Assembly: GCF_032884065.1 (NCBI RefSeq)
Contig: NC_088868.1
Coordinates: 7,274,758-7,338,757, forward strand
From: Artemia franciscana
Taxonomy: Eukaryota; Arthropoda; Branchiopoda; Anostraca; Artemiidae
DNA: 64,000 nucleotides
Direction of reading: 5' to 3'
The position numbers were made by a program, and so were the translations under genes. Shown piece by piece: positions 17,347-57,057 of the stretch. The number at the start of each line of letters is the position of its first letter. Position 1 is the stretch's first letter. The notes below the pieces were generated by a model, which saw only the letters and a list, made by a program, of their open reading frames with translations, was not told the origin of the DNA and ran no database searches.

Positions 17347-17354
17347 CAAAATAA

Positions 17355-22317: not shown

Positions 22318-22676
22318 AAATTTGGAATTGGTGAGCTTTTAGGAATTAAAATCATTATACATAAAATATCCAATTTAATTAGTTCTTTCCACAACTGTTC
22401 ATGACAAAATATAGTTTCACTAAAAACGAGAGTTTCCATACTGCCCCCTTCCTTAACTGTATAAGTCTAAAGCCTACTGCATCATTGGTGCTTCACTGAA
22501 AACGAATAATATTACAAATGTTTTCTTTTCCAGTTATTACAGCTTTGAAGACGAAAAAAACAAATTACTGTGAAATAGAATCTTGAACTGATCATCTTTC
22601 AACAGTTAATATAATTATATTTCAAATATTGAGTTTGATTTTATCTGTACTTTCCGAGACTGTTGACACATATAAT

Positions 22677-23505
22677 CAAACAGTTCGTGGTAACGAACTG
22701 TAGTAAGGAGCGATCCGGCTCAATAGTAACCAAAACTCTAAAAAATTGAATTTTGATATCAATAGTTACATCAAAAGAATCGCATTTTAATGCTGATTTT
22801 AAATATATAAGTTTCATCAAGTTTAGTCTTAGCCATCAAAAGTTACGAGCCTGAGAAAATTTGCCTTATTTAGGAAAATAGGGGGAAACACCCCCTAAAA
22901 GTCGTAGGATCTTAACGAAAATGACACCATCAGATTCAGCGTATCAGAGAACCCTACTGTAGAAGTTTCAAGCTCCTATCTACAAAAATGTGGAATTTCG
23001 CACTTTTTGCCCGAAGACAAATCACGGGTGCGTGTTTATTTGTTTGTTTTTTTTTTGTTTTTTTTTCCCAGGGGTCATCGTATCGACCAAGTGGTCCTAG
23101 AATGTCGCAAGAGGGCTCATTCTAACGGAAATGAAAAGTTCTAGTGCCCTTTTTAAGTGACCAAAAAAATTGGAGGGCATCTAGGCCCCCTCCCACGCTC
23201 ATTTTTTTCCCAAAGTCAACGGATCAAAATTTTGAGATAGCCATTTTGTTTAGCATAGTCGAAAATCATAATAACTATGTTTTTGGGGATGACTTGCTCC
23301 CCCACAGCCCCTGGGGGTGGGGTTGCAAGTTACAAACTTCAACCAGTGTTTACATATAATAATGGTTATTGGAAAGTGTACAGACGTTTTCAGGGGGATT
23401 TTTTTGGTTTTGGAGGTAGGGTTGAGGGAGGGGGCTATGTGGGAGGATCTTTCCTTGGAGAAATATGCCATGGGGGAAAAAAATTCAATGAAAAGGGCGC
23501 AGGAC
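22677..23505 (+). mobile_element. Family B element, truncated copy
   Basis: Starts at the B terminal hairpin (CAGTTCGTGGTAACGAACTG then TAGTAAGGAGCGA) right after the host word ATATAAT. It follows the B sequence through GACCAAAAAAATTGGAGGGC to the G-rich stretch near 23400-23480 and then stops. The following 23506-23839 is not B sequence. Confidence 0.85.
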
Positions 23506-23839
23506 GAATCTGGTCACGTTAGAAAAAAACGTCAAATTAAGAGCTTAATATACAATTCTGGGTGTTCGGAGCCTCTCTATTATGGAGTATAATTTGAAAA
23601 TAACACAACTATACGAGCGATAAAACATATATACCACAACCGTAACTCAACTAACGAAAGAACTGCTAAGAGATAACACAACTATAAAGCGAAAACAGGT
23701 GAAAACTAACGGGAAAATAAACGAACTAAGAGGTGGAAGGGGCCCAGAGAAAAAATATAATCCTTTTTCAATTTTGAGCCTAACTTCCGCAAAGGAGTAA
23801 TAATGTCAGAAGCCCCGAAATACCGAATTATTTTCTTTT
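23506..23839. other. Orphan segment between two B copies
   Basis: About 330 bp that match neither family B nor the opposite arm of the palindrome. No coding feature recognised. It must have arrived with, or between, the two B insertions. Confidence 0.45.
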
Positions 23840-25582
23840 CAAACAGTTCGTGGTAAGGAACTGTAGTAAGGGGCGACCCGGCTCAATAGTAAACGAAACT
23901 CTAAAAAACGGAATTTTGATGCTAAAAGATACATCAAAAGATTCGAATTTTTACGCTGATTCTAAATATTAAGTTTCAATTAATTTAGTCTTTGTCATCA
24001 AAAGTTACGGGCCTGAGAAAATTTGCCCTATTTTGGAAAAAAGGGGGAAACATCCATTAAAAGTCACAGAATCTTAACGAAAATCACACTATCGCATTCG
24101 GTATATCAGAGAACTCTATAGCAAAAATTTCAAGCTCCTATCTAAAAAATGTGGAATTTTGTATTTTTTGCCAGAAGACAAATCACGGGTGCGTGTTTAT
24201 TTATTTATTTGTTGTTTTTTTTTGTTTTTTTCCCAGGGGTCATCTTATCGACCAAGTGGTCCTAGGATGTCGCGAGAGGGCTCATTCTAACGGAAATGAA
24301 AAGTTCTAGTGCCCTTTTTAAGTGACCAAAAAATTCGAGGGCAAATAGGCCCCCTCCCATGCTCATTTTTTTCCAAAAGTCAACAGATTAGAATTTTAAG
24401 ATAGCCATTTTGTTCAGCATAGTCGAAAACCATAATAACTATGTCTTTGGGAATGACTTACTCCCCCACAATCCCTGAGGGAGGGCTGCAAGTTACAAAC
24501 TTTGACCAGTGTTTACATATAGTAATGGTTATTGGGAAGTGTACAGACGTTTTCATGGGGATTTTTTGGTTTGGGGGGTGGGGTTGATGGGAGAGGGCTT
24601 TGTGGGAGGATCTTTCCTTTGAGGAATATGTCACGGGGGAAGAAAAATTCAATGAAAAGGGCGCAGGATTTTCTAGCATTACTATAAAAAAACAATGAAA
24701 AAATAAACATGAAAACGTTTTTTCAAATGAAAGTAAGGAATAGCATTGAGATTTAAAACGAACAGAGATTATTACGCATATGAGGGGTTCTAAAAATACT
24801 TTAGCATAAAGAGCGAGGTATTTAGGAGGAGATAGATACCTCGCTCTTGATGCTAAAATATTTTTAGTGATTTCAACTATTTATTCTACGGCCTTTTTGA
24901 TTCAGGGGTCATTCTTAAAGAATTGGGACAAAACTTACGATTTAGTGTAAAGAGCGAGGTATTAACGAGGGTACAAACCCCCTCGTACACATAATAAAAA
25001 TATAAGAATATAAAAGTTTGTTACGTAAGTTAATTCTTAAGTTACGTATATTTTTTACTAATAAAAACGTTCGTTGAATATTAAAAGTTCTAGTAGCCTT
25101 TTTAAGTAACCGAAAAATTGGAGGGCAGCTAGGCCTCCTTCCCCACCCCTTATTTCTCAAAATCGTCTGATCAAAACTAAAAGAAAGCCATTTAGCCAAA
25201 AAAAAATTAATATACTAATTTCATTTCAATAATTTATGTGCGGAGAGCCAAAATCAAACATGTATTAATTCAAAAACGTTCAGAAATTAAATAAAAAAAA
25301 CTAGTTTTTTTAACTGAAAGTAAGGAGCGACATTAAAACTTAAAACGAACAGAAATTACTCCGTATATGAAATGGGTTTTCCCCTCCGCAGTCCCTCGCT
25401 CTTTACGCTAAAGTTTTTAATTGTTTTAAAAAGTAGAATTGTGGCAAAGAGTCAAACTTTAGCGTAAAGAGCGAGGGACTGCGGAGGGGACAACCCATTT
25501 CATATACGGAGTAATTTCTGTTCGTTTTAAGTTTTAATGTCGCTCCTTACTTTCAGTTAAAAAAACTAGTTTTTTTTATTTA
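23840..25582 (+). mobile_element. Family B element, full-length copy (about 1.74 kb)
   Basis: Begins CAAACAGTTCGTGGTAAGGA and ends ...AAAAAAACTAGTTTTTTT, TATTTA before host TTTTCAGTAG. Near the end lies a foldback (25293-25577): arms of about 125 bp, loop about 40 bp, each arm with GTAAGGAGCGACATTAAAAC, GAACAGAAATTACTCCGTAT and CGCTCTTTACGCTAAAGTTT. A second hairpin built on AAAGAGCGAGGTAT is at 24800-24862. AGTAAGGAGCGAC near the start is inverted at the end, giving a subterminal inverted repeat. No protein is encoded. Confidence 0.88.
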
Positions 25583-27760
25583 TTTTCAGTAGAGCGCCAA
25601 TGATGCAGTCAGTTTTAGACTTTTACAGTGAGAGAAGGAGACAAAATCCAAACTCTTGTTTTTAGTGATTTTTGTTCGTTTCAAGCTTGATCTGTATGTT
25701 CAATTTAAGTTTCAGTCGTTTTAAGATTTATTTACTCCTTTATATTAGTACCTATTGTATGTTTGTTTGTTATGATTGTTTATTTAATTTCTGTTCGTTT
25801 TGGGTTTTAATCATACTTCAATAAAAAAAAATATTTTTGTTTGTTTTAAGCTTGATCTGCATATTCAACTTGAGCTTTTCCCGTTTTAAGGTTTATTTAT
25901 TCATTTATATTACTACCTGCTGTATATTTTTTTGGTATGATTGTTTATTCAATTTCTGTTTCTTTTGAGTTTTATTTATCTTTTAATGGTAATTTCTGAT
26001 CGTTTTGTGTTTGGATTTTAATATTTATTTATATCTGCCAATCTCAAGTTTAATATGGTCTTTACTTGTCTTTGAAAATCTTCTTTTTCAGATTTTTTTT
26101 TTAATTACTCTACATTTAACTTTTAAACGACTCTATGTCAGTGAAAGAGGCGAATAAAAGTTTTTCTAACAGCTAAAAGCCCGTCTTATTTGGTGTAGAG
26201 GCTTTTCTTAATTGACTGATAACGATAATAAGAATCCTTCATTGTTAGGCATTAGCATGAACAAGGCAAATATCACTAATAATGTTTAAGTAGAACACCA
26301 TTCCATTTTTCTTAATTATCTTAGACTTGGAGTAACTCACGACAAAAATAATAAAAAATAGTAAGGAAAGCTATGTATTCTTCTAATCGTCTTATACATG
26401 AATTAAAACAAGGGGGGATGTACAGGGAAACACCCTGTATCATCTAAACCTTACATCTTTTCCCTCCTTTTTCCTAGAGGTGACCAAATCGTGCCAGGGT
26501 CATAGAATATTGGGAGAAGGTTCATTTAATGAAAATTCTGCCCTTTTTAAGTAATTAATTATAAAAAACTTTCCGAAAAAGATATTTTCTAAAGAAAAGT
26601 AAAGGCCATATTAAACTTGAGATCAGAAGAAACAAAATCTTTTGAGACAAATTTTGGAGATTCCTTTTGAAATCTCTCGAAACGAAAAAAAATCTCTACA
26701 AAGAAGAGTTTGGGTTTTACCTCCTTCTCTAACTGTTAAAGTCTAAAACTTACTCCGAAATTGGCGCTTTACTGAAAACTATATGCGTCTTGAACAGTCT
26801 TGGAAAGTACAAATAACATCAAACTGAATATTTTATGTATCATGATATCAATTGTTGAAAAATAATCAGTTAAAGATTTTATTCGCTGTATTTTTTTTCA
26901 TTTTCAATACCATAATAACTGGAAAAGAAAACATTTGTAATATTATTCGTTTTCAGTGAAGCACCAATGATGCAGTAGGCTTTAGACATTTACAGCTAAG
27001 GAAGGAGGCAGTATCCCAGCTTTTGTTTGTAGTGAAACTATATTTGTCTGGAACAGTCTTGCAAAGAACTAATAAAATTTTACTGAATCTTTGATATGTA
27101 ATTATATTAATTGTTGAAAGCACATCACTTCAAAATTTAATTCTGCACTAATTTTTAAGTTTATTTTCAATGTTGTAACAAGTAGCCTACAAAAGAAAGT
27201 AATCGTGATCAAGTCGTTTTCTAAGGCGCCAATGACGCAGTAGGTTTTAGACTTTTACAGCGAGAGAAGGAGACAAAACCTTAACTCTTGTTTGTAGTGA
27301 TTTTTGTTTGTATCAAGCTTTATTTGCATATTCGAATTACGTTTCACTCGTTTAAGATTTATTTATTCATTTATATTAGTAACTATTGTATGTTTATTTT
27401 CTATGCTTGTTTATGTAATTTCTGTTTGTTTTGGGTTTTATTTATTCTTTTATAGTAATTTCTTGTAACTTGTTCATTTATATTAATACTTGTTGTATGC
27501 ATTTTTGCTATAATTGTTTATTTAATTTCTCTTCGTTTTGGTTTTATTTATTCTTTATCAGTAATTTCTTGTCGTTTCTAGTTTGAATTTTAACTGGCAT
27601 TTGTATCTGCTAATCTCAAGTTTAGTATGGCCTTTATTTTTCTCCGAAAAACTTCTTTTTCGGAAAGTTTCTTTTTTATTAATTTTTGTTCGTTTTTGAT
27701 TTTTAAAAGTTTCAAAGTTTTTAAAAAGTCCCTTATTACCAGTGGCAGATCCAATGAGGG
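25583..27760. repeat. Intronic repeat family D, left arm
   Basis: A module containing GCGCCAATGA(T/C)GCAGTAGG, TTTTAGACTTTTACAG, GAGAGAAGGAGAC and CTTGTTTGTAGTGATTTTTG recurs near 25590, 26960 and 27225 in one orientation and near 26710-26790 in the other. Mirror copies are in the right arm at 51890-54560 and one more is at 22410-22510. T-rich spacers resembling TTCTGTTCGTTTTGGGTTTTA lie between modules. It predates the inverted duplication because both arms carry it. Confidence 0.65.
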
Positions 27761-29049
27761 GGGTCTGACGTAGTGGTGGATTTGCGATTTGGACCGCTTG
27801 CTCTGGTTTGGGACGAAAGTTATTTTTTTAATTTATTTTTAATAGTTGAGTTTTTAATGGGTTTTTAATTATTAAGAATGTTACTTTTGGCAAACAAGTT
27901 TGAAACAAGGTTTAGTTACTTTGTGCGGTCTCTGTTAGATTTTATTAATGACGCATATCGCCAAAAAGTATTTAATTAAATTTAGGTTTTGTCAAGGGAA
28001 TCTGTTCGGATTACCACAGAAGCCAACTGGGAGGCGAAAATCTTCATTTCGTAATAACAAGGAGGGGAAATTTAAAATCCTAACCTCTTTAGGCTGTCAA
28101 AATGATATTTCGGGATTGCGCTGCCACAACGGGGCTGAAAAACAAAATATTTACTACTTTTTACTGTCAAAATTTTACTTTCGAGTCTTGCTTTGTCACT
28201 GAGGTGAAGAAATTGATATTATTACTTTTTTCGGTTGCCTGTTTTGGTTTTTTGGATTTACTTTTTTGCGATGCGGGGTGGTTTTTACAAAATTGTTGTT
28301 TTTTAGGGGATTTATATAATAGAAAGTAAATGTATAAGAAATGCAAAAATTTAAGTTTTGGATTTTGGTGAGCAAATGATGGCCACTTTACTGCCTCTTT
28401 TAATCAAATTAATGCTCTGCGTTATATGACATATCACCTCCTTTGTTCATCCTAAAACATTAAAATAAAGGCCGAACTTTTTAAAACTTTAACAAAGGTT
28501 CGTATAATTCTATGCTTAAAACTAAGTATATAAGTCAAAATACTCCTTTAAAGGTCGGAGTAGGCTAATCATTTAAGAAGAATAGATTTTCAAAAAATTG
28601 TTTATAAAGGAAGGCAAATAATAATGTGTTTTTTTTCTAGCTGGTTTAGATGGGTCTCGGAATTCTCTGTTTAATCAATGGAATGGCATCGATTGTTTTT
28701 CAAACATCTACTAATAAAATGTCGATAAAAAGTGGAAAATCACACAGCTTGAGTTAACCACGGAAACGGAATCAACTACAATATCACTTCAGAATTTCTC
28801 ACCTTCTCAATACCAACCAGTCACAAAATATAGTTATGTTTTTGTATTGTGATTGCATATAATTGTCCATTAAATTGTCTAAACTGCTATATATACTGCT
28901 GAATATTTTTATGCTTATTTTGACACATGCCATCCAATTATATTTTTATTTTTGTGCTCAACAGACATATCAAGAGTTAACGTTTGAGATTAATATCTGG
29001 AAGTCTCAAGAATAATAATAATAAAAAAAATGGAAATATCTAACACAGC

Positions 29050-29165
29050 AACATCAGTATAAAATTTATCCTATTAAACAAAAGACAAGTAATCAGCTCT
29101 CACGTATTTATAAAGCTACCAAAGTTTGGAATAGCCTGCCATTTGAAGTAGTAGAACCACCTAAT
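29050..29165 (+). pseudogene. Old LINE tail remnant in the EMG1 intron (left arm)
   Basis: Plus strand encodes [20 protein letters not shown], the pattern of a LINE polymerase C-terminus. It is mirrored in the right arm near 50395-50500, so it was in the intron before duplication. Confidence 0.5.
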
Positions 29166-30748
29166 ATGCAGGGGCACCAATTCATGAAAATGTAGGGGAG
29201 GGGGACAAAATACATTTTTCCAGGGAATGCTAATTTTGTCTTTTTCTGGTTTTCAAATGAAAATGTCAAAAAAGGTATTTCTCAAAACATGTAGAGGCAA
29301 ATACTGTAAACTGTAGACTACACAAAGAATCAAAACTAGGGTGACCTAATTGAAGGTGGTATATTAAAAATTTCTGGAGTTGGTTACACCTCTTAACTAA
29401 ATCCACAGCCTTGACCATACCTGTAATGAGCCAGCTCTATTCAATGGGGAGTCCATCAGCATCAATAAGCACCGGTGAGTAATATCAGGACGAAATGTGG
29501 CAGGATCTCTGTTATTCTTCTGAAGGATACCAATATGATCATCACAGGTCATCACAATTCGAATTCGTCCTACCAAGAAAAATATTAATTAATTTGATTA
29601 AACGCTTTCATTTAATTTCAGAGGGTTTTCTCAACGGCCCATGTCTTACTGGTAAAAAGGCTATTTGAAAAAAAAAACAAAAAAAAAACAAAACAGAAAA
29701 CAATGGAAGTAAAGCTGGCTTATACAACTGCAAAGGTGGATCTAAAGCAAAATCTTGGGGGGTCCTAATGTGACAAGGGCCCCAATAACTGACCAAATTA
29801 GAAAAGGGAATTTTATCTTATTTTAAAATAGGAAAAATGTATTTTTAAATTTTATTTTTGAAAAGGAGTAAGCAAGAGAAAAAACAAATGAGGTCACCAG
29901 AAAAATATTAGTGGGGATCCCCTGCCCCCTGGATCCGTCCCTGTACAACCGGCTAGGGAAAAGCATACCATTAACTCATAAATAGTGAGTGAATATTCAA
30001 TTTTACAAACTGACTATACTTTCACTGTTTAAATCAAAAGTTATGTTTCAACCAGTGTTAATTGTTGTCATTCTCTTGCAATATTTTTTTCATAAATACT
30101 GCTAATTTCTTGAAGTAAATGATAACAGCATAAAGAAAAAATGTCATTAGTGTAATAATTAGAATTCAATGCCAAATACCGCTAGCCATAAAGACTTTCC
30201 ACTAGCAGAGAAGATTTTCTTTCCATATCTAGCCAGCCAATCCTTGTCTTCTTGCAAATAATTGCTAGGCAGCTTGAAGCAAGCCATGAATCATGGAAAT
30301 AAGCTAAGGAAAGCTAAGCTGGATATTAGGGTTAAATATTTAGCAGGAATATAAGTAAAACTTCTAAAGCAAACATTATAAAATCAAACCCAAACTTTAT
30401 AATTTGCAGGAAGTTTCTATCAATCACATTCCTTGTTCTTTTTTATTTAATTTACAATTTTAAATAATATACTTATCTAATTCTGATCATTCTTTCATAA
30501 TGGCATGATGCTAAACGATGAATAAAGGATGAATTGCACCATTTTGAAAAGATATGGTAATAACATCAGCAATGAAAAACATTAGATAAACATATTATTT
30601 AAACATATACATTCAGCCCTTTAAGGAAGAGGAGGAGGGAGGTTCATAAAGATGGCTAGACTTAAATTTGGAAAGCATATAGTGGGAAATATAACAGTAC
30701 TACTCTTTTATTATTATAATAAAATTTTTATTTGCAAATGATCATACA

Positions 30749-33053
30749 AACAAGAGCTAAGAGCTCATATAGCACTTGTGATGAGGCAAGAAGAGCTAAG
30801 AGCCAAGAGATCATATGGTATGAGCTCTAACAAAATTCTATGAATCAATAGATTGATTTAAAAAAGAAAATAAGAGGCTTAATGCCGGTAGGGATTTCAA
30901 ATAAGAGCTCTGAAATACGAGGTCCTTCTAAATATCAAAATTCATTAAGATCCGATCACCCACTCAAAGGTTAAAAATACATCAATTTTTCTAATTTTTC
31001 CTCTCCTTTCAGCCCCCCAGATGTTCGAATCTGGGAAAACGACTTTATCAGGATTTAAAATAAGAGCTCTGAGTCACGATGTCCTTCTTAATATCAAAAT
31101 TCATTAAGATCCGATCACCCACTCGTAAGTTAAAAATATCGAATTTTTTTTCATTTTTCCTCTCCCTTTAGCCCCCCAGATGGTCGAATCTGGGAAAACG
31201 ACTTTATCGTTGTGCAGCTCCCTGACACGCCTATCAATTTTCATCGTCCTAGCACGTCCAGAAGCACCAAACTCGCCAAATCACTCAACCCCTCCCCCCT
31301 ACTCCCCCAAAAAGAGCAAATCCAGTACGGTTCTGTCAATCACGTATCAAGGACATTTGCTTATTCTATCCACCAAGCTTCATCCCGATTCCCCCACTCC
31401 AAGTGTTTTCCAAGATTTCCCCCTGGTCGGGTTTTAAAATAAGAGCTCTGAGACAGGAATTCCCTCTAAATATCAAATTTCATTAAGATCCGATCACCTA
31501 TTCGTAAAGTTTCCCCCTCCACCCCCCCCCCCCCAGTGTCACAGGATCTCGTCGGAATTTAAAATTAGAGCTTTAAAGCACAATATCCTTCTAAATATCA
31601 AATTTCATTAAGATCTGGTCATCCTTTCGTAAGCAACAAATACCTCAATTTTCAAAATTACTCCCCCCCCCCCAACTGCACCAAGAGAGCAGATCGGGTC
31701 TGGTTATGTTAATCATGTATCTAGGACTTGAGCTTATTCTTCCCATCCAGTTTCATGCTGATCTCACCGCTTTAAGTATTTTCTAAGTTTTAGGTTTCCG
31801 GTCCCCCCAACTGCCCCCCCAATTACGTTTGATCCGGTTAAGATTTAAATAAGAGATCTGAGTTACGAGGTCTACGAGGTCCTTCTAAAAATCAAATTTC
31901 ATTGAGATCCGATCACCCATTCGTAAGTTAAAAATACCTCATTTTTTAAATTTTTCAGAATTACCCCCCCCCCCAACTACCCCAAAGAGAGCGGATCCGT
32001 TCCGGTTATTTCAATCATGTGTCTAGGACATGTGCTTATTTTTCCCACAGTTTCATCCCGATCCCTCAACTAAGTGTTTTCCAAGTTTTAGGTTCCCCCC
32101 TCCCAACTCCCCCCCAATATCACCAGATCCTGTCGGAATTTAAAATAAGAGCTCTGAGACACAATATCCTTCTAAATATCAAATTTCATTGAGATCCGAT
32201 CACCCGTTTGTAAGTTAAAAATACCTCATTTTTCTAATTTTTCAGAATTAACCCCCCCAAGTACCCCAAAGAGAAGGAATCGTTCCGGTTATGTTAATCA
32301 TGTATCTAGGACTTGAGCTTATTTTTCCCACCAAGTTTCGTCCCAATCCCTCCACTCTAAAGTGTTTTCCAAGTTTTAGGTTTCCCCCTCCCAACTCCCC
32401 CCCCCCCCCAATGTCACCAGATCCGGTCGGGATTTAAAATAAGAGCTTTGAGACACGGTACCATTCTAAATATTAAATTTCATTGAGATCCGATCACCCA
32501 TTCGTAAGTTAAAAATACCTCTTTTTTCTAATTTTTCAGAATTAACCCCCCCCCCTCAACTACCCCAAAGAGAGCGGATCCATTCCGGTTATGTCAATCA
32601 TGTATCTAGGACTTGTGCTTATTTTTCCCACCAAGTTTCATCCCGGTCCCTACACTCTAAGGGTTTTCCAAGATTTTAGGTTTCCTCCTCCCAGCCCCCC
32701 CCCCCCCAATGTCACCAGATCCGGTCGGGATTCAAAATAACAGCTTTGAGACATGATATCCTTCCAAACATCAAATTTCATTAAGATCTGATCAACCGTT
32801 CGTAAGTTAAAAATAATTAAATTTTTCTATTTTTCCTGAATTAACAGGCACCCCCCCCCCACCCCCAGATGGTCAAATCGGAAAAAAGACTATTTCTCAT
32901 TTAATCTGGTCCGGTCTCTGATACGCCTGCCAAATTTCATCGTCCTAGCTTACCTGGAAATGCCTAAAGTAGCAAAACCAGGACTGACAAACCAACAGAC
33001 CAACAGAATTTGCAATTGCTATATGTCACTTGGTTAATACCAAGTGCCATAAA
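30749..33053 (+). mobile_element. Family A element, full copy inserted after the duplication (2.3 kb)
   Basis: 5' end AACAAGAGCTAAGAGCTCAT at 30749, a run of internal units (poly-C runs near 31520, 31660, 31965, 32400, 32545, 32695 and 32850 mark them), and 3' hairpin CACTTGGTTAATACCAAGTG plus CCATAAA ending at 33053. The right arm has an uninterrupted site at about 49597-49606 (TTTATGATCA), so the boundaries are defined within a few bases. No duplicated target of more than a few bases is visible. Confidence 0.9.
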
Positions 33054-33744
33054 AAGAAAAAAGCAGAGTAATAGAAAAGAAGAAAAAGGAAAACAGGAAC
33101 ACTTAAACAGCAAAGACCAAATAAAAAAATCCATATGCACTGATTAATCAGGTGTAAAGGCAAAGACTTCAATAAAATCTCAAATGCCTTTTTTCAGCAC
33201 TTTTTTCAACAAATGACTCAATAAAAATTGGGCCTATCATGTTTTGAAATATTATGTTCACTGTCTAAGTTCTGGTCTGGTCTCTTGTGGTTTTAGTGTA
33301 TCAACAAAAGTCAATAACTCTATTATTCAATATCTGTGATTCAGTTCTATCCATATACCTAATTACGTTTTTGAAAATTGGTGTACAGGGTTTGTTAGAT
33401 TAAAAATATATCAAAAATCGGATCAAAATTAGCAAGTCTAGATCCTTCCTCAAGGTAAAGCCAAAACTAATATCATAATTCTGGCTTAGTGTAATAGATA
33501 TCAGTTTGGGTGAGACAGTCCCAAAATTGTGAATGACAAGTTTTTTCAACTGGAAGAAAGAAGCAACACTTGAACTTATAGCAAACAAACCCGAATTATT
33601 CAGTACATAAGGGGGGCTACCCCTTCCTTGACCCTTGCTCTTTAACTAAAATATCTTAAGGTTCTTTAAGAAAACTTCTCATTCGAATTCCATAGACCTG
33701 ACATTGAAACACAAGTCAAATACCTCGTCAGAGAAGAACTAAAA

Positions 33745-34230
33745 GTGTTGAAGGAAACCCTATCAAACGAATTCCATGCCGAGCTCGCAGCCATTAATAA
33801 GGCTGACAAATCAGAAGCCCGCGAAGAAGTGAGACATGAAATAAGAAGAGACCATGATAGGCAGCGCCGAAGGCTAAATATCATAGCTCACGGAACTCCC
33901 GAGCTAGAGCGGGGTACAAGCCAGGAGAATGAACAGGTTGATATAATGTTCATCAGCGAGCACCTAGTAACATCCTATAAACTTTCAGAATTTCATCTCA
34001 CAAATGTAAAGCCCTTGATACCTAAGAGTAACCAGATCGTTGCCGGACAACAGCCACAAAGAATAGCGCCAGTGATATTTACCATCCCCAACATGATGAT
34101 AAAAAGGAAATCACTAGAATCTCCTTTTTGAAAAAGGAGACGATTCAGTACCGAAGTGATGTAAGCAGGGAGGACAGAGAGAAGCAAGCGAAGCTTGTGA
34201 AAGAATTAAAGGACTGGCTGCAAAATGGTT
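33745..34230 (+). pseudogene. LINE ORF1-like fragment
   Basis: Encodes a charged, helix-prone segment (SEAREEVRHEIRRDHDRQRR) followed by RRLNIIAHGTPE, a phrase common in LINE first-ORF or linker regions ahead of the endonuclease. After a stop near 34129 the resemblance resumes in another frame (YRSDVSREDREK, ELKDWLQNG). The exact role is uncertain. Confidence 0.5.
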
Positions 34231-34459
34231 AAAAAGACCTTGTTATCTGTAAGAGTTGCATTGTCCCAAAAAACCAGCAGTGAGTGGGGTTGAGAACTTT
34301 CCCTTCCCCACTAGTGTAAATAGATCCGATAGTTCAAAATATTTAGACTCTAGTGACAATAGATGTACAGATTCGGAACTGGATACAGTATCCACGAGTT
34401 ATGAAGATGTCCAAACAGCTAGTGAAATAAGTGATAGTAACCCAAGTGATCTAGTACAA

Positions 34460-35340
34460 AACATTAAAAGTCATTGCTCTAAGTTTCTTCAAGTGCTGAG
34501 CACAAACGTAGACTCCTGGTCAAATAAACTAACGGAGTTACGGATCTTAGGAGCCAAAAAGGATTATGATGTGATTTGTGTTGCTGAAATTAAGCCGAAG
34601 AATGCAAATAACCCCTTGGATGATACCCACATTCGAATTGCTGGATATTTTCTATTTACAAACTTACAAGATGGCCCAAGAAGAGGAATCGCAGACTATG
34701 TGTAGGCAACCTTATTGGTAAGGAGAATCTCTCTTAATAAAGTTTTGGATTGGGTTGAATATTTAGCTATAGAGATTGTGCTACACTAAGAAAGTCTAGT
34801 TTTAGCCACTTTTTACCAGAGCCCCAGTTGCCCAAACCTAATAGAGTCTGAACTGGCACTTTGTAAGGCCCTGCAGTTGCTACAAGATAAGAAGCCAAAG
34901 AACCTTTTAATAAATGGAGATTTTTACCTTCCTCAAGTCAGCTGGGTTGATGGCTTAGGGTATTCCCTGCAGTATCACGAGGGTCATGGTATGAATTCTG
35001 CTTTCCTCACTTACCTAGCAGAAAATACGCTATATCAATCCATTGAATCACCAACAAGGTTCAGAGATGGACAAATACCCTCGCTACTTGACCTAGTAAT
35101 CACAGACAACCCAGATCAAATTCTAAGTATAGATCATTTACCACCAATTGGTGCAAGTGATCATGTATGTCTCTTAGAAACTCTCCAACTGTCACCACCC
35201 TCTTCCAACCATATTTGCAGAAGATATATCGATTATGAGAAAATCCGCAAGGAACTAAGAGAATGCAAAATGGCGACTGGGAAGCACTGTTTGAGCACAA
35301 GTCAAGCAACGACAGCTGGAATCTCTTCAAGGAAATAATG
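34460..35340 (+). pseudogene. LINE apurinic/apyrimidinic-type endonuclease domain
   Basis: Visible motifs: LSTNVDSWSNKLTELR (N motif), DVICVAEIKPKN (catalytic Glu motif), LLINGDFYLPQVSW (GDFN-like), SLLDLVITD and GASDHVCLLETL (SDH motif). The first two and the last three are in the same frame but separated by stops at 34703 and beyond. This domain nicks target DNA in the LINE copy cycle. Confidence 0.8.
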
Positions 35341-40500: not shown

Positions 40501-40565
40501 TTTGGTATTTATATACTATTTCCATAGGGTTTTATGCCCTTAGTCTGTCTTCAATTAGAGTTAAA
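37546..40565. other. EMG1 intron DNA, left arm
   Basis: No exon recognised. It matches 44373-47280 in reverse complement throughout, including GCATATAAAGG, CCCCTAATTTGCAAATATA and AAACTTATTCCTTTATTTAA. The G-rich and C-rich homopolymers at 38068 and 39743 differ in length between arms. Confidence 0.6.
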
Positions 40566-41074: not shown

Positions 41075-41075
41075 T

Positions 41076-42180: not shown

Positions 42181-42682
42181 TCAAACAGTCCGTTGTAACG
42201 AACTGTAGTAAGGAGCGACCCGGCTCAAAAGTAAACGAAACTCTAAAAAACACAATTTTGGAAAAAGAATGGATATTTCGTTAAAAAGATCCCCGCACCA
42301 ATTTTAATGTTAAAAAAGAATATAAAAGAAAAATCATTGTTATATTTCTCTTTGTATGTTTGTTTCATAGTCACTCTCTCCATTTATACTCACTAGATCT
42401 GTTTTTTTACTGTCTTTTAGTGGTCTTTCATTATTTTTGTTCGTGCGCATTGAAGTCCTGGTGTTTTTATTTTTTTTTTTTACTTTTTGAGTGTTGAAGA
42501 AAGATTGGCTGCAATACTTGTTGATAAATCTTTCTTGTTTCGTATTTCCCTTCCAATATCTGAAAATAGCCAATCTTGTTTTGGCTTTTATCTGATTTTA
42601 TTTTCATTTTTGTCTTTGCTTTCTTTTTTATTTTGTATCACATTGAACGCTACTAAAAAAAAGTCAGTTTTAAATGATAAAA
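42181..42682. other. Palindrome spacer between gene and pseudogene
   Basis: Unpaired centre of the inverted duplication. It opens with an ~80-bp piece of family B in plus orientation (CAAACAGTCCGTTGTAACGA, GTAAGGAGCGACCCGGCTC). The rest is AT-rich with no recognised coding content. It lies 280 bp upstream of EMG1 and of the pseudogene on either side, so whatever promoter EMG1 uses is here or in the duplicated flanks. Confidence 0.65.
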
Positions 42683-42964
42683 AAAAATTATATCATATAC
42701 CTAAACTACAAATAGTCAGATATCAAGGTCTATCAAGATCTAGAACACAAAAAAATGGTAATTCTTGTTTAAAATGAAAGTAAATTCAAAGAGGTTTGAG
42801 AATTTATTGGAAATTCTTTTCTTTAAAATTTTTTCCCATTTTGTGCTAGATTTCGACACAAAGGCCTTTTTTTGGAACTAGCAGAACTAGCAGTGACGAT
42901 AAGAATATTTAAAATTTTAACACGTGATTTAGCCTTAGCCACACATTGTCAGTACAGGTTCAAT

Positions 42965-43105
42965 ATGGGGAAAAGAAAGAGAGAGAGAAATCCTGAAGAA
43001 AGTAATGAGATCAGTCTTCCCCATGATAAGTTGAGATTTTCTCATATCAACCAAGAAAAAAGGCTTATTGTTGTTTTGGAAGGAGCACAGCTGGAATGTG
43101 TCAAG
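42965..43105 (+). CDS. EMG1 exon 1 (start codon exon)
   Basis: ATG at 42965 in the context AATATGG. It ends ...GAATGTGTCAAG before donor GTGAGT. An upstream in-frame ATG at 42872 would add 31 residues without family resemblance, so the MGKRKRER start is preferred. Confidence 0.9.
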
Positions 43106-46100
43106 GTGAGTAGCCTATGCTTGTGTAATAGGCTAGTCATTAACTAGGTAAAATTTCTGTTTAGCTGCTTTTTGCTATATTGAAAGGGGTAAGCTAGGAA
43201 AATGAAACTTACAGTAATGAATCCAGGGTCAAAACATAGCCTACTCTGGGAATGTAGGCTATTGCTAAGCCCTCATGTTAAATCTGGTCTGATTTCTAAG
43301 TCTTATGAATTTGCCTAATTCACTGGTCTATGACTGCTAAAACTTTGGCAAAACAATATTTTACCTTAATTTTCTGTTATCAGTTTCCTTCTCTCTTGCT
43401 TTAGCCTAGTTCTGAAGATGAAATTCTGGTAAAATTATAGAAAATTGTATAACTGCCTTTTATATAAAGTGAATATACCACTCAATGCCTTTTTTATGTT
43501 CTTTATAAACATAATAATTGCTTCTACCTTAAATTGAGATTTAAGCACTTTTTTAGCTCTTAAAAATGACAAATTTTCAAAATAATGACAGATAACCAAC
43601 TTACCAATAAAAAGTGAACATACCTCTTGATGCCTTTTTTCATGTTTATTAAGAATATAATAATTGTTTCAATTGCAAATTCAAATTTAAGCACTTTTTG
43701 AGCTCTTCAAAATGACAGATTTTCAATTAGAGTATAACTTATCACTTATTTTCTGCAGAGTAATATTATGTTTTCTATCTTTTCCATCAAAAATGATGGA
43801 AAAGTGCCATCTTTTCCATCATTTTTGAAAAAATAATGCTACATTTTCTCAGTGCTACAATTATTTATAACAAGGTGAGGCTAGGTTAAAAAGTGCTTAA
43901 ATTTAAGGTAGAAGTGATTATTATATTTGTAAAGAACATAAAAAAGGCATCAAGTGGTATATTCACTTTATACAAAAGCCAGTTATATGTTTTGCTATAA
44001 TTTTACTGAAATTCCTGTCATTAGAGTAGAATTTTAAGCCATATCAATGAGTTTTTTTCCAAATTTAAGAAGTGTGCTCTTGGATCTTTGAAACTTCATA
44101 AATTTGGATTGAGCAAAGTTTTAAAGCTGAAAACAGTTTTGTTGTGCTTCATTCAAGTGGAGATCTATTTTGCAAGGTTTCACTTCTATAACCAAGATCT
44201 TTAAAGGTCATCAAAGGTCAGGGCCCTCTAGTAGGAGAAGTAATGGCAGTAGGCACTTAAAGCTACCCTTCTGACACATACTCTAGTTTGTAGACCCATC
44301 CCTGAAAGTTTCATTTTTCCTAACCTAAACCCTTTCCAAAATAGAAAAAATTGGCTATGCTAGAATTTACCCTTAACTCTAATTGAAGACATACTAAGGG
44401 CATAAAACCCTATGGAAATAGCATATAAATACCAAATATATTCAGTAAGTAGGCCTATAGGCCTATGTAAAATTATTTATCTATTTATTCTTAATTTTCC
44501 TGCAGTTCTTGACTCTCAATCATTACATATGCCTAGCTAGGATATTAGCTGACAACTAAGGATATTAAGAAAGGAAAATGTTAAAAAAACAATTCTTCTT
44601 TCATAATACAGTCTACCAAAAAGTTATAGTAAACACATTTGAGAATGCTTCCACAATGTTTTACCCCTCCCTCCTCCTAGGACTCTGATCCTAGAGATAA
44701 GTTTGTTTCTTAGCTATCTGACTTATTATCCCCCCCCCCTAATGTCCAAATATAGCAAAATCATAGGCTATTTTTCCCATGTTTTTCTTTCTTGGTTTTG
44801 TCAGCATTCATTCAATTTAGCCTACAGGTACATGGAATGAAACTAGAGTGATGCATGAAAATATAGGCTAGCATTTGGGCTGTAGCATATATTTACAAAT
44901 TAGGGAGGTTAGGGTAAAGCATAGTGAAAGTGACTTCAAAATGCATTAACTATAATTTTTCTGCATATTATGCCATAAGAATTGTTTTCTTAAAATGCTT
45001 GTCTTGCTTCATATTTTGGTAAGTGTTTTCTAAAAGAACAATCTCATTTAAAAGAAACATGCTAATAAAGTAAAAACAAGGTATTAGTCCTTTCAAAATA
45101 AAACAGTATAAAATTCTGATCATTCCTAAAAGGACCATTGGGTGGCTATAGTATCAGAAAAGCAGCCACAATATTTTGAACAAACAGAAATTAAGGAATC
45201 TAGTGATTCTACCTTTATTTTGCTAGTGTGTTTCCTTTAGATATAGTCAACCACAGTAAGATTTTGCAAATTTACCTTAAATTAGTTTTATAGCTGTAGC
45301 ACTCATTGATTATACTTTAATCAAGCAAAATACAAGGATAATTTGGGTACATAGAAATACAGAAATACATAGAAATTCCTCCTGTAAAGGGAAAACTGGG
45401 TTCTTCTGCACAGGGACTTATGCACATTGTGAACTTATCTCCACAGGAACAAAAATGTCTGAAAACTAATTTAAAACAATCCTAAATACTTACTTGTTGC
45501 ATTTTTAAAAGCACATTGCTTAACTTTATCCCTTTCACTCTGGTGGATAAACTTATGGCCTATTATGTTTTGCTATATTGAACTTCTGTAATGGACAACC
45601 TATTATATTTTATCATCAGTTTGTGATAACAAATTGTAAGTAAGGAGCAATGCAGCTAAATAGTTAAGTCTTTTAAAACTTCAAAAAAATATTTTTTTAA
45701 TTTAACAGCTCTTGTGTTTCAGGATTCATTCTTACATAATTAGAACAAAAATGCAAACTTTGGTGTAAACAGTAAAATGTTTAGGTGTGGGCAACTCCCT
45801 TATATATGTAATAATTTTTGTTTGTTTTAAGTTTTAATATTGCTCTTTGCTTTCAGTAGAAAAGACTTTTCTTTTTTATTTAATATCCATCAGTGGAAGG
45901 GGTGAAGGTAAGAAGAAGTAATGTTCATAGCAATGAGATAAGTAATTATTTATGGCTTTTAAGAATAGTTTTGAGGTTCCTTTAAGGTTTTATTCAGATT
46001 AGGCCCTATGCTTAAGAATTACTTAACAATTAAATTTTAGGTTGTGTTGCATTGTAATATTGTCAATTAAGATTCTGCTGAAACCTGAGTTGCACATTTG

Positions 46101-49100
46101 TACACAAACTTTTAAAGAACATTATTAATAAAGCCCACAGAATATGACCCTCTCCCTTTATATGCAGTATAGATTCCTCAGCTGTATTCAACTCAGTTAT
46201 GCAGTCTCTGATGTCCCTGAAAATACTCAGGTGTGTGATTAATGCCCATGTTGTAGCATTTTTGTTTTTCTGCTACTCAACTGGCTTGGTGACAATGACA
46301 CTGGCAGCAGATATCCAAATCAGACTGATTAGATTTGTTTGAGGTATTCAGGTTTGTTGGTATGAGGTACTCCCTTTGAAAGCAAGCAGTAAAGTAGTGA
46401 TCTTGCATATATGATGGCTAGAATGAATAAAAATTTATTCTGGTTAATTCATAGAATCACATATGGGCATGATACCAATTCTTTTTGTTGAGTGATGATT
46501 GAGAAAATTACCAACAGTGCTTGCTCAAGTTCTGGTAAGCTTGTCTTTCTAAACCTTAATCTGATCAGGATGATTCTTGCAAAGCTTTACACAACTATTG
46601 GCTCTCCCTCATATGCTTTCTGTTTCAATTGTGGTTACAAGCTTCGAGTAAGGAGCAACATCCCAATAGTAACCAAAACTCCAAAAAAGGGAATTTTGAT
46701 ATGAATAGGTACACCAAAATAATTTCTTTTTTTATAGATTCCAAATATATAAAATTCATTGAGATTAATGTTACTCATCAAAAGTTAGAAGCCTGACAAA
46801 ACCTGCCTGATTGTAAGAGAGGAGAAGCCCCCCCCCCCAAAAAAAAAGTCAATCATAGAAAATAACACCATGAAATTCAGCATGTTCTAAATGTTCATCA
46901 AAAGTTCTAGTGTCCTTCTTAAGTGACCAAAAGATTGGGTGACAGTTAGCTGTTTGCCCATTGTTCACAAATAGTATTTTTTATTAGAAAATGTTTAGAA
47001 ATTATTTGGGAAGGAGATTTTCCATGGGAGTGAAATTTTACTGGGGAACTTTCTATGGTAGGGGAGGGAAAGTCCTAGCATTATTTGCAAAGAGATCAGA
47101 AATTAAATAAAGGAATAAGTTTTTTTCAACTGAAAATAAGGAAGAACATCAGAACTTAAAGCAAACTGAAATTATTCTATATATGAGTGGGGGTTGGGAT
47201 TGCCCCTTTCTTGACACTCAGTCTTTACACTAGAATTGGATGTTTTGTCACAATTCTTTAGGAAAGACTGATCAAACAACAGTTATGGAATTCGAATGAG
47301 AAGTTTTCTTAAAGAACCGTAAGATATTTTAATTAACAAACAAGGGTCAAGGAAGGGGTAGCCCCCCTTATATACTGAATAATTTGGGTTTGTTTGCTAT
47401 AAGTTCTAGTGTTGTTTCTTTCTTCCAGTTGAAAAAACTTGTCATTCACAATTATGGGACTGGCTCATTCAAACTGATATCTATTACACTAAGCCAGAAT
47501 TATGATATTAGTTTGGCTTTATCTTGAAGAAGGATCTAGACTTGCTAATTTTGATCCAATTTTTGATATATTTAAATCTAACAACAAACCTAACAAACCC
47601 TGTACACTAATTTTCAAGAACGTAATTAGGTATATGGATAGAACTGAATCACAGATATTGAATAATAGAAAGTTATTGACTTTTGTTGATACACCAAAAC
47701 CACAGAAGACAAGACCAAAAGTTAGACAGTGAACATAATATTTCAAAACATGGTAGGTACAATTTTTATTGAGCCATTTGTTGAAAATAGTGCTGAAAAA
47801 AGTGTTTTCAAAAGTGTTGAAAATAATGCTGGAAAAAGGCATTTGAAATGTTATTCCAGTCTTTGCCTCTACACCTGATAAATAAAAAAAAACAAGTTTT
47901 TTTAAATGAAAGTAAGGCAACATTAAAACAGAAATTACTCCGTATATGAAAGGGGCTTTTCCTCCTCAACGCCTCGCTCTTTACACTAAAGTTTGACTCT
48001 TTCTCTTAACTCTATTTTTAAAACTGTAAGAAACTTTAGCGTAAAGAGCGGGGCAATGAGGAGGAAAAGCCCCTTTCATATACGGAGTAATTTTTGTTCG
48101 TTTTCAGTTTTAGTGTTGCTAGAATTTGTTAGTGTTGCTAAAAACTTTCATTTAAAAAAACTTGTTTTTTTATTTAATTTCTGGACATTTTTGAATTAAT
48201 GCATGTTTTGATGTTGGCTCTCCGCGTATAAATAATTAAAACGAGATTTGCATATTAATTAATTGCAATTAATCAGAAGATTTTGAGAAAAAAGGAGCGA
48301 GGGAGGAGGCCTAGTTGCCCTCCAATTTTTTGACTACTCAAAAAAGCAACTAGAACTTTTAATTTTTATACAAACGTTTTCATTGGTAAAAAATATACGT
48401 AACTGACGAATTAACTTACATAACGAACTTCTATATTCGTATGTTTTTATTGCATATATGAGGGGGTTCAAACCTCGTCGATACCTTGCTCTTTACACTA
48501 AAGCTTAAATTTTGTCCCAATTCCTTAAGAATGACTTCTGAATCACAAAGGCCATAGAATAAATAGTTAACATTACTAAAAATACTTTAGCGTAAAGAGT
48601 GAGGTATAACAAGGAGGTAAATCCCTCATATGCGTAATAATTTTTGTTTGTTTTAAGTTTTAATGCTGCTCCTTACTTTCAGTAGAAAAACCTTTTCATA
48701 CTTATTTTTTCATTGTTTTTTACAATAATGTTAGAAAATCCTGCGCCCCCCTTCATTGAAATTCTCTTTCCCCATGAGAACTTTCTCTGTGGAAATATCC
48801 TCCCACGTAACCCCCCTCCCCCAACTCTCCGCCTAAACACAGGTCAAATTTTGTTACTTGCACTGCCTCCCACGGGGACTGCGAGGAGTAAGTCGTCCCT
48901 AAAGACTTAGTTATTAGGTTTTTCAACTATGGTAAATAAAATGGCTATCTCAGAATTTTGATCCGGTGACTTTTGGGAAGAAATGAGCGTGGGAGGGGGC
49001 TAGGTGCCCTCCAATTTTTTTGGTCACTTAAAAAGGGCACTAGAAATTTTAATTTCCCTTAGAATGAGCCCTCTCGCGACATTCTAGGACCACTCAGTCA

Positions 49101-52100
49101 ATACGATCACCCCTGGGAAAAAAAACAAATAAACACACATCCATGATCTGTCTTCTGGCAAAAAATGCGAAATTCCACATTTTTGTAGATGGGAGCTTGA
49201 AACTTCTACAATAAGGTTCTCTGATACGCTGAATCTGATGGTGTGATTTTCGTTAAGATTGTATGACTTTTAAAGGATGTTTCCCCCTATTTTCTAAAAT
49301 GAGGCAAATTTTCTCGGGCTCGTAACTTTTGATTGGTATAACTGATCTGGATAAAACTTATATATTTAAATCAAAATTAAAATGCGATTCTTTTGATGTA
49401 ACTATTGGTATCAAAATTCCATTTTTCTAGAGTTTTGGTTACTATTGAGCCTGGTCACTCCTTACTACAGTTTGTTACTACAAACTGTTTGATTAGTCAT
49501 TGCATATGGATTTTTTTATTTGGTCTTTGTTGTTGAAGTGTTCCTGTTTTCCTTTTTCTTCTTTTCTATTACTCTGCTTTTTCCTTTTTTTTTATGATCA
49601 AATAAAACTGTTAATATAATAATAAAAGAGTAGTACTATTATATTTCCCATTATATGCTTTCCAAAAATTTTCTGGTGACCTCATTTTTTTTCTTTTGTT
49701 TACTCCTTTTTAAAAATAAAATTTAAAAATATATTTTTCCTTTTTTAAATAAAATGTAATTGCTTTTTTTGATATGGTCGGTTATTGGGGCCCTTGTCAC
49801 ATTAGGACCTCCCAAAGATTTTGCTCTAGATCCACCTTTGCAGTTGTATAAACCAGTTTCACTTTCCATTGTTTTCTGTATATTTTTTTTTGCAAATGGC
49901 CTTTTTACCAGTAAGACATGGGCTGTTGGGAAAACCCTCTGAAGTTAAATGAAAGTGTTTAATCTAATTAACTAATATTTCTTCTAGGTAGGGTACGAAT
50001 TCGAATTGTTGAACTGTGATGATCACATTGGTATCCTTAAGAAGAATAATAGAGATCCTGCCACAGTTCGTCCAGATATTACTCACCAGTGCTTATTGAT
50101 GCTGATGGACTCCCCATTGAATAGAGCTGGCTTATTACAGGTATGGTCAGGGCTGTTGAGTTAGTTATGAGGTATAACCAACTTTAGAAATTTTTAATAT
50201 ACCACCTTTAATTAAGTCATCCTGGTTTTGATTCTTTGTGTAGTCTGCAGTTTCCAGTATTTGCCTCTTACATGTTTTGAGATATACCTTTTTTGACACT
50301 TTCAGTTAAAAATCAGAAAAAGACAAAATTAGTACTCCCCTGAAAAATGTGTTTTGTCCCCCTCCCCTGTATTTTTATGAATTGGTGCCCCTGTATATTA
50401 GGTGGTTCTACTACTTCAAATGGCAGGCTATTCCCAACTTCAGCAGCTTTATAAAAACGTGAGTGCTGATCACTTGTCTTTTTGTTCAATAGGATAAATT
50501 TTATACTGATGTTGCTGTGTGTGTGTGTGTTTTTTTTTTTAATCTTGAGACTTTCGGATATTTCAGACGTTAAGTCTCGATATGTCTGTTGAGCACAAAA
50601 ATAAAAACATTAAATTTGACCCAGATTTAGCATTAAGTAAAATAATTGTCTGGTAAAAATGTTGATTCATAAGCAACTAATCATGGAAATACAATTGGAT
50701 GGCATGTATCAAAATAAACATAAAAATATTCAGCAGTTTAGACAATTTTATGAACAAAAAAGTGCAACCCCTATACAAAAACATAACTATATTTTGTGAC
50801 TGGTTGGTATTTAGAAGGTGAGAAATTCTGAAGTAATATTGTTGTTGATTCCGTTTCCAGTGGTTAACTCAATTTGTGTGATTTTCCACTTTTTATCGAC
50901 ATTTTGTTAGTAGATGTTTGAAAAAAAATCGATGCTATTCCATTGATTAAACAGAGAATTCCGAGACCCATCTATACCAGCTAGAAAAAAAACATATTAT
51001 TATTTGCCTTCCTTTATAAACAATTTTTTGAAAATCTATTCTTCTTAAATGATTAGCCTATTCCGACCTTTAAAGGAGTATTTTGACTTATATACTTAGT
51101 TTTAAGTATATACTTATACGAACCCTTATTAAAGTTTTAAAGAGTTTGGCCGTTATTTCAATGTTTTAGGATGAACAAAGGAGGCGATATGTCATATAAC
51201 GCAGAGCATTAATTTGATTAAAAGGTGCAGTAAAGTGGCCATCATTTGCTAACCAAAATCCAAAACTTAAATTTTTGCACTTCTTATACATTTACTTTCT
51301 ATTATACAAATCCCCTAAAAACAACAATTTTGTAAAAACCACCCCGCTTCGCAAAAAAGTAAACCTAAAAAACCAAAACAGGTAACTGAAAAAAGTAATA
51401 ATATCAATTTCTTCACCTCAGTGTCATAGCAAGACTCGAAAGCAAAATTTTGACAGTAATAACTAGTAAATATTTTGCTTTCAGCCCTGATGTGACAGCA
51501 AAATCCTGAAATATCATTTCGACAGCCTAAAGAGGTTAGGATTTTAAATTTCCCCTCCTTGTTACTACGAAATGAAGATTTTCGCCTCCCAGTTGGCTTC
51601 TGTGGTAATTTGGGCAGATTCCCTTGATAAACCTAAATTTAATTAAATACTTTTTGGTGATATGCGTCATTAGTAAAATCTAACAGAGACCGCACAAAGT
51701 AACTAAAACCTTGTTTCAAACTTGTTTGCAAAAGTAACAGTCTTAATAATTAGAAACCTATTAAAAACTCAAGTACTAAAAATCAATTGCGAAAAAAATA
51801 ACTTTCGTTCCAACCCAAACCAGAACAAGCGGTCCCAATCGCAAATCCACCGCCACGTTAGCCCCACTTCCCATTGGATCCGCCACTGGTAATAAGGCAT
51901 TCTCTAAAAAGTTGAAATTCTTAAAAACAAAAACGAGCAAAAATTAATTAAAAAAAAAACTTCCCGAAAAAGAAGTTTTTCAGAGAAAAGTAAAGGCCAT
52001 ACTAAACTTGACATCAGCAGATACAAATGTCAGTTAAAATTCAAACTAGAATCGACAAGAAATTACTATTAAAGAATAAATGAAACCAAAACGAACAGGA

Positions 52101-55100
52101 ATTAAATAAACAATTATAGCAGAAACACATACAACAAGTATTAATTAAATGAATTAGTTACAAGAAATTACTATAAAAGAATAAATGAAACCCAAAACAA
52201 ACAGAAATTACATACACAATCATAGAAAATAAACATACAACACTTGCTTATGTAAATGAATAAATAAATCTTAAACAAGTAAAACGTAATTCGAATATGC
52301 AAACGAAGCTTGATACAAACAAAAATCACTACAAACAAGAGTTTGGGTTTTGTCTGCTTCTCTTGCTGTAGAAGTCTGGAACCTACTGCTTCATTGGCGC
52401 CTTAATAAAAACGACTTGTATTGCAAGTACTTTCTTTTTTACTTGTTACAACATTGAAAATAAACTTTAAATTAAAGTAGAATTAAATTTTTAAGTGATT
52501 TGTTTCATCAATTAATATAATTACATATCAAATATTCAGTAAAATTTTATTAGTTCTTTCCAAGACTGTTCCAGACAAATATAGTTTCACTACAAACAAA
52601 AGCTGGGATACTGCCTCCTTCCTTAGCTGTAAATGTCTAAAGCCTACTGCATCATTGGTGCTTCACTGAAAACGAATAATATTACAAATGTTTTCTTTTC
52701 CAGTTATTACGGTATTGAAAATGAAAAAAAATACAGCGAATAAAATCTTGAACTGATTATTTTTCAACAATTGATATCATGATACATAAAATATTCAGTT
52801 TGATGTTATTTGTACTTTCCAAGACTGCTCAAGACGCATATAGTTTTCAGTAAAGCGCCAATTTCGGAGCAAGTTTTAGACTTTAACAGTTAGAGGAGGA
52901 GGTAAAACCCAAACTTTTCTTTGTAGAGATTTTTGTTCGTTTCGAGAGATTTCAAAAGGAATCTCAAAAATTTGTCTCAAAAGATTTTGTTTCTTCTGAT
53001 CTCAAGTTTAATATGGCCTTTACTTTTCCTTAGAAAATATCTTTTTCGGAAAGTTTTTTATAATTAATTACTTAAAAAGGGCAGAATTTTCATTAAATGA
53101 ACCTTCTCCCAATATTCTATGACCCTGACACGATTTAGTTACCTCTAGGAAAAAGGAGGGAAAAGATATAAGGTTTAGAGGATACAGGGTGTTTCCCAGT
53201 ACATCCCCCCTTGTTTTAATTCATGTATAAGATGATTAGAAGAATACATAGCTTCTTTCCTTATTATTTTTATTATTTTTGTCGTGAGTTACTCCAAGTC
53301 TAAGATAATTAAGAAAAATGGAATGGTGTTCTACTTAAACATTATTATTTATATTTGCCTTGTTCATGCTAATGCCTAACAATGAAGGATTCTTATTATC
53401 GTTATCAGTCAATTAAGAAAAGCCTCTACACCAAATAAGACGGGCTTTTAGCTGTTAGAAAATCTTTTATTCGCCTCTTTCACTGACATAGAGTCGTTTA
53501 AAAGTTAAATGTAGAGTAATTAAAAAAAAAGATTCTGAAAAAGAAGTTTTTCAGACAACTAAAGGCCATTTTAAACTTGAGATTAGCAGATATAAATAAA
53601 TATTAAAATCCGAACAAAAAACGATCAGAAATTACCATTAAAAGATAAATGAAACCCAAAAGAAACAGAAATTAAATAAACAATCATACCCAAAAAAAAT
53701 ATACAGCAGTTAGTAATATAAATGAATAAATAAACCTTAAAAGGAGAAAAGCTCAAGTTGAATATGCAAATCAAGCTTAAAACAAACAATTTTTTTTTTT
53801 AATGAAGTATGATTAAAACCCAAAACGAACAGAAATTAAATAAACAATCATAGCAAACAAACATACAATAGGTACTAATATAAAGGAGTAAATAAATCTT
53901 AAAACGACTGAAACTTAAATTGAACATACAAATCAAGCTTGAAACGAACAAAAATCACTAAAAACAAGAGTTTGGGTTTTGTCTCCTTCTCTCACTGTAA
54001 AAGCCTAAAACTTACTGCATCATTGGCGCTCTACTAAAAATTATATGTGTGAACAGTCCCGGAAAGTACAGATAAAATCAAACTGAATATTTGAAATATA
54101 ATTATATTAACTGTTTAAAGATGATCAGTTCAAGATTTTATTTTACTGTAACTTTTTTTCATCTTCAAAGCTGTAATAACCGGAAAGAAAATATTTGTAA
54201 CATAATTCGTTTTTAGTAAAGTACCGTTGACGTAGTATCCTTTAAACTTATACAGTTAAGGAAGGGGGCAGTATGGAAACTCTTGTTTGTAGTGAAACTA
54301 TATTTTGTCATGAACAGTTGTGGAAAGAACTAATTAAATTAAATTGGATATTTGATATATAATGATTATAATTGCTAAAAATTCACTAATTCCAAATTTA
54401 ATTTTACTGTAATTTTTATTTTATTTTCAATGTTTTTAAAAAATATAAAAGAAAATATTTTCCTATAATTCGTTTTCAATAAAATACCAATGACGCACTG
54501 GGTTTAAGAATTTTACAGTGAGAGAATGAAGCAATAACGAAGGTCTTGTTTGTAGTGATTTTTGTTCGTTTCAAGCTTGATTTGTATATTAAGTTTCAGT
54601 TTCACTCGTTTTAATATTTATTTATTCTTATATATTACTACCTATTGTATATTTGTTTGCTATGATTATTTATTCAATATCTGTCTGTTTTGGGTTTCTT
54701 TTATTCTTGTCGTTTCCAATTTGAATTTTAACAGGCATTTGCATCTTCTGTTCTTAAGTTAAGTATGGCCTTTACTTTTTTTTGAAAAATTTCTTTTTCG
54801 AAAAGTTTTTTTAATTGATTAAGAAAAAGAGCCGGAAAAAGACCCGCAAACTTGACGTCAAACTGAAATAATAAGTACAGCGTGAAATCGCCACTGTCGG
54901 AAAACCCTTAACACGAGGCTGTATGTCATCTGGAAAAAACGCAAAAATAATATTTTTCCGCAGGGTACAGGCGCAATAGTAGGTGGCTGGAAAATCTTAG
55001 AAATATGGTTAATAACGAGGGACCGCCCACTTTATGCCACCTGGTGTACATGAACGAGAGTCACATGTACCGCAGAGGTCCGCCAAAGGTGTCTCAGAGT

Positions 55101-56947: not shown

Positions 56948-57057
<110 letters not shown>

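Follow-up and report, generated by a model that had tools for sequence, protein, structure and literature searches.

Why does a 64,000-nucleotide stretch of Artemia franciscana DNA (hereafter, the window) hold the beginning of EMG1, an essential ribosome-assembly gene, twice, as two copies pointing away from each other across a short centre, and does the second copy need a function? Comparison of the window with itself by BLASTN, followed by chaining, gave inverted collinear blocks running from 22318/54399 to 42181/42681. This chain bears out the claim of an earlier note that the window contains a giant inverted duplication with a spacer of about 500 bp, which we place at 499 bp. The parts are:

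22318..42181, minus strand: left arm (the copy), from chained inverted BLASTN blocks; reverse complement of the right arm apart from its private insertions
42182..42680, no strand: spacer of 499 bp, the first ~147 bp of which (42182-42328) are the 5′ end of a repeat termed F
42681..54399, plus strand: right arm (the donor, with the EMG1 context), from the BLASTN chain; EMG1 exon 3 then lies outside the arm

The two collinear copies on opposite strands are far beyond chance: in comparisons of the left half of the window with the right half after shuffling of single bases (20 shuffles), the top match scored 35.6 bits, whereas the largest real block reached 4973 bits with identical scoring. In the chained BLASTN, the main blocks have identities of 93.0% (25582-28945 versus 54041-50687), 90.0% (38022-40930 versus 46883-44007) and 88.7% (22318-22676 versus 54399-54040). 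Six chained blocks beyond the arm limits (6426-10351 versus 59481-62997) were left out because they fall within a dispersed repeat, termed S, that occurs in many places and in both orientations. Homology stops at the arm limits given here, since no match to 1-22317, on either strand, starts within 54400-59399 at E 1e-3. Comparing 1-22317 with 54400-64000 at E 1e-3 gave 95 inverted and 37 direct matches, and all 132 begin at position 59400 or later, where repeats F and S stand.

The arms are unequal in size at present (19.9 kb on the left and 11.7 kb on the right), mainly because the left arm has taken up more insertions. Removal of the private insertions leaves 10,033 bp and 10,113 bp, and further removal of an inner rearranged zone leaves 9,346 and 9,353 bp; the previously suggested size of about 10 kb per arm, which already set later insertions aside, agrees with this (about 9.3-10 kb). 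Without the inner zone, arm-to-arm identity is 92.7% (K2P 0.077) over 9,111 aligned columns; with the zone kept, it is 88.8% over 9,818 columns. About 1 kb near the centre is not cleanly comparable, because the arms differ in content there, with a 630-bp repeat (about 41071-41707) on the left and a different, foldback-like stretch on the right:

43427..44006, no strand: self-complementary, foldback-like stretch, in the right arm only

The repeat on the left belongs to a self-complementary dispersed family of ~630 bp with three copies in the window (15615-16235, 17355-17983 and 41071-41707) at 90-93% identity. Tandem units of ~106, 165 and 262 bp occur at 51944-54822 and 25594-27681 and probably predate the duplication, as they are common to both arms.

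The right copy carries the following exons:

42965..43105, plus strand: EMG1 exon 1, codons 1-47, followed by GTGAGT
49988..50140, plus strand: EMG1 exon 2, 51 codons, with AG/GT borders
55803..55893, plus strand: EMG1 exon 3, 30 codons and one base, with AG/GT borders, outside the right arm

Joined across AG/GT borders, exons 1-3 give 128 codons free of stops. The product matches the EMG1 family (Pfam PF03587, E 1.1e-41), and the best of its NEP1 matches in the PDB is entry 7mq8 (E 1.6e-46). The sequence of that entry agrees with human EMG1, and it outscores chains that we take to be from yeast. The profile match, the intact frame and the splice sites identify the right copy, over its first 128 codons, as an EMG1/NEP1 methyltransferase gene; with human EMG1 as query, exons after exon 3, encoding the C-terminal part, were not found in the 64-kb window. 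About 1 kb past exon 3 stands a 111-bp (TA)n run (56948-57058). We take the right arm as the donor because exon 3 continues from this arm only. The duplicated part of the locus (~10 kb) starts 284 bp before the ATG and runs through exon 1, intron 1 and exon 2 into intron 2. The alignment of the upstream side and the intron indicates copying at the DNA level, and a retrocopy is ruled out because the intron and upstream DNA were copied too.

The left arm contains counterparts of the first two exons:

41746..41888, minus strand: pseudogene exon 1; ATG and donor site preserved, a +2 frameshift, an in-frame TAG, another codon turned into TAA
29421..29573, minus strand: pseudogene exon 2; -2 and +2 indels cancel, so the frame is open and the residues between them are altered

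As had been proposed, gene and pseudogene diverge head to head, and the duplication takes in the start codon along with two exons; the 284 bp before the start codon are included as well. Exon 3 is absent from the left arm (0 of its 71 21-mers are present there), and a search of the 22 kb to the left of that arm with human EMG1 gave no convincing exon 3. Gene and copy differ at 13 of 67 aligned residues, a count that starts after residue 31 of exon 1 because the human sequence aligns poorly before that point; gene and copy differ in that initial part too, for example by two substitutions. When the 13 differences were polarised by human NEP1, eight lay on the side of the copy (the gene being the same as human), none showed the reverse and five were uninformative; four of the eight informative residues lie within or next to the single stretch displaced by the -2/+2 indels and are not independent, so that about five events are represented. 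Judged from these changes, constraint appears to act on the right copy, the gene, and the left copy appears to be decaying. Partial unprocessed pseudogenes keep introns and upstream DNA, are truncated and carry frameshifts and stop codons. The left copy, with its disabling changes and relaxed constraint, is one of these in all essentials and differs only in its inverted position beside the parent. A functional second EMG1 is ruled out by the disabled exon 1, although exon 2 is open. The best reading is that the left copy is a decaying 5′ pseudogene that was later split by transposons.

Five private insertions separate the arms, each with a clean or near-clean empty site in the opposite arm:

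22677..25581, plus strand: left-arm insertion of repeat F in two successive copies (5′ ends near 22679 and 23842); empty site 54040/54041
29905..30666, no strand: left-arm insertion of ~760 bp; empty site 49666-49669
30735..33050, plus strand: left-arm insertion of repeat S, which has a 3′ hairpin and, internally, tandem repeats of ~290 bp; near-clean empty site 49589-49599, with ~9 bp unmatched
33695..37542, plus strand: left-arm insertion of a decayed LINE-like retrotransposon with Pfam endonuclease and reverse transcriptase matches; empty site 47284-47286
47884..49489, minus strand: right-arm insertion of repeat F, with an F end, in EMG1 intron 1; empty site about 33143-33150

Four of the five, counted as clean insertions, are in the copy, an excess that fits relaxed constraint there, though the number is small. 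Both repeats recur in the window. Repeat S is found at about 6430-10350, 13517-14295, 20008-21885, 30735-33050 and 59481-62998; it has internal tandem repeats of ~290 bp, and several copies have a common 5′ end and a 3′ hairpin. From these tandem repeats and the hairpin, we presume a resemblance to non-autonomous Helentron-like elements. Sequence patterns of S had no match in viral_contigs or genome_contigs, neither of which is a collection of animal genomes. Repeat F, with a palindromic 5′ end, has five matches (22679, 23842, 42184, 49489 on the minus strand, and 60087), and some copies have a self-complementary 3′ part (for example, 25283-25587). In the flank to the left of the arms, an ORF at 1590-1991 on the minus strand encodes an HSP20/alpha-crystallin domain (Pfam E 1.4e-19). 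Upstream of it on the same strand, the ORF 10319-10645 shows weak similarity to a crystallin N-terminus (E 0.0017, below the cut-off) and may be the first exon of an HSP20-like gene. A third minus-strand ORF, 18592-19089, had no Pfam match above the cut-off; we take it to resemble LINE-type endonuclease/reverse transcriptases at their C-terminal tail. No RNA family reached the gathering threshold in the window, and a tRNA scan of the window using the bacterial code returned none.

The junctions bear on how the copy arose. At the inner junction, the left arm ends in T7 (42175-42181), directly followed by the 5′ end of the F element, and the right arm starts within a run of nine A (42679-42687). 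The T7/A9 pair adjoins the F element end in AT-rich DNA and may be due to chance. Matches of the remainder of the spacer within the window are all weak and involve A/T-rich DNA (best E 4e-5). Of the two outer ends, that of the right arm lies inside the tandem units at 51944-54822, and that of the left arm abuts a repeat fragment:

22151..22317, plus strand: fragment of repeat S at the outer junction; it consists of the 5′ end and part of the repeat of S, has an internal gap and is truncated where it meets the left arm

We consider it very probable that the locus represents an inverted segmental duplication, old and interstitial, that later received independent insertions and that probably arose from a single fold-back or template-switch event. 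One repair or replication event would have made the copy: at a short A/T tract (T7/A9), a broken or stalled end would have turned back on itself or changed template, the resulting loop would have become the spacer, and the far end would have been joined to a fragment of the dispersed repeat S at 22317. Afterwards, LINE, F, S and other elements would have inserted independently into both arms, more often into the copy. Consistent with such an event, a spacer (499 bp) lies between the arms; in the fold-back mechanism, the loop itself constitutes the spacer, and resection and the distance between microhomologies determine how large it is (PMC9199198). The interstitial position, the 0.5-kb spacer and the copied exon 2 that is still open are points against this account. 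The F element at the inner junction may also be a later insertion that shifted or erased the original breakpoint.

The arms do not behave as a palindrome maintained by gene conversion, which is ruled out by their identity of 92.7%, compared with the more than about 99% taken as the mark of such a structure; identity per 500-bp window showed no rise toward the centre. One segment stands out:

52561..53127, no strand: high-identity stretch with a 149-bp identical run (52561-52709)

Its longest run has p 0.002, and its 3 differences in 300 columns were matched by 0 of 1000 permutations, which assumed one even rate over 8,273 columns from 44330 outward and took in a poorly aligned window (50545-50851, 75 differences in 250), so that the stretch appears somewhat rarer than it truly is. 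It may be a short gene-conversion tract; uneven rates are an alternative.

A different origin can be imagined, in which transposon-mediated capture or repair placed the left arm, as an inverted duplicon, beside its source and the junction repeats (S outside, F inside) mark the insertion. Partial repeat fragments do adjoin both ends of the left arm, and the presumed likeness of S to Helentron-like elements is suggestive because that group is known for DNA capture. However, the S fragment stops inside its repeat at 22317, short of the hairpin end, and the central F consists of the first ~147 bp only, so that neither repeat encloses the left arm. Moreover, proximity and inverted orientation are what a fold-back would be expected to give, and we regard insertion of a duplicon as unlikely. 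Still more improbable is an assembly artefact, in the form of an inverted chimeric read or of a head-to-head join between two haplotypes of the locus. Highly heterozygous animals exist, which would favour the latter, but inverted chimeric reads are expected to give near-identical arms, and the arms here differ at 7.3% and have private insertions in each. A joined haplotype should also have the exon-3 side of the locus as its leftward continuation; the left side lacks it and has the HSP20-like gene instead, and with lenient scoring the matches listed between 54400-56900 and the left side are weak (60-81% over short stretches). The five private insertions with empty sites, the 7% divergence and the absence of the exon-3 side on the left make a read or haplotype artefact unlikely, and the duplication is probably present in the chromosome, as judged from the assembled sequence. 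An allelic misjoin, or a single true arm, was what the earlier note saw as fatal to its proposal; the divergence, the private insertions and the missing exon-3 side on the left leave that outcome unlikely.

Could the copy nevertheless act through RNA? The inverted repeat might serve as a source of double-stranded RNA, with read-through or antisense transcripts folding and feeding a small-RNA pathway that tunes EMG1. Perfect 21-mers of the right copy are present in the left arm for exon 1 (25/121), exon 2 (24/133) and the right arm as a whole (2286/11699), compared with 4/11699 in a control stretch (1-19864); since exons 1 and 2 have such 21-mers in common with the left arm, siRNAs from a hairpin could match EMG1. 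There is also a precedent in natural inverted repeats that can give endo-siRNAs, such as mouse Optn, with a stem of ~300 bp and a loop of ~1 kb (PMC11239679). That locus resembles the one described here in its inverted arms and in a loop of an order similar to the 499-bp spacer, and differs in that a transcript crossing the centre and small RNAs are hypothetical for the EMG1 arms. Against the idea, the two copied putative promoters would face outward, so that both RNAs would be sense and would not pair with each other; a hairpin would therefore require read-through or antisense transcription. The arms are also mostly intron and repeat, insertions of up to 3.8 kb break the helix, and the arms have drifted to about 93%. 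The hairpin RNA as first proposed is thus, given the predicted promoter orientation, not supported as stated, and we give a dsRNA source that tunes EMG1 very little credence. There is an equally slim chance that the copy owes its retention to occasional transcripts crossing the 499-bp centre and forming a hairpin whose small RNAs match exons 1 and 2, and that 52561-53127 reflects continuing exchange between the arms. If true, this would amount to pseudogene-based control of a core ribosome-assembly enzyme. Under the fold-back origin that we prefer, the left copy would need no function.

The architecture is explained by known fold-back duplications and palindromes. Like human fold-back inverted duplications (PMC9199198), the locus has two inverted copies, a short single-copy spacer and possible short homology at the inner junction. 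The cases reviewed there are terminal, with spacers mostly of 1-5 kb, whereas the EMG1 duplication is interstitial, ~10 kb long, old and diverged, with a 0.5-kb spacer (PMC9199198). With mammalian sex-chromosome palindromes, it has in common long inverted arms, a spacer and gene sequence carried in the arms; those palindromes are >99% identical with frequent gene conversion (PMC8981503), unlike the EMG1 arms with their 92.7% identity and private insertions. Taken together, the inverted duplication is in all likelihood genuine, an old rearrangement of a fairly ordinary kind. Each insertion is recognisable by the empty site opposite, which gives the locus its value for dating insertions and for studying how inverted duplications decay. 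It is a well-preserved inverted duplication at a housekeeping gene and calls for no new mechanism.
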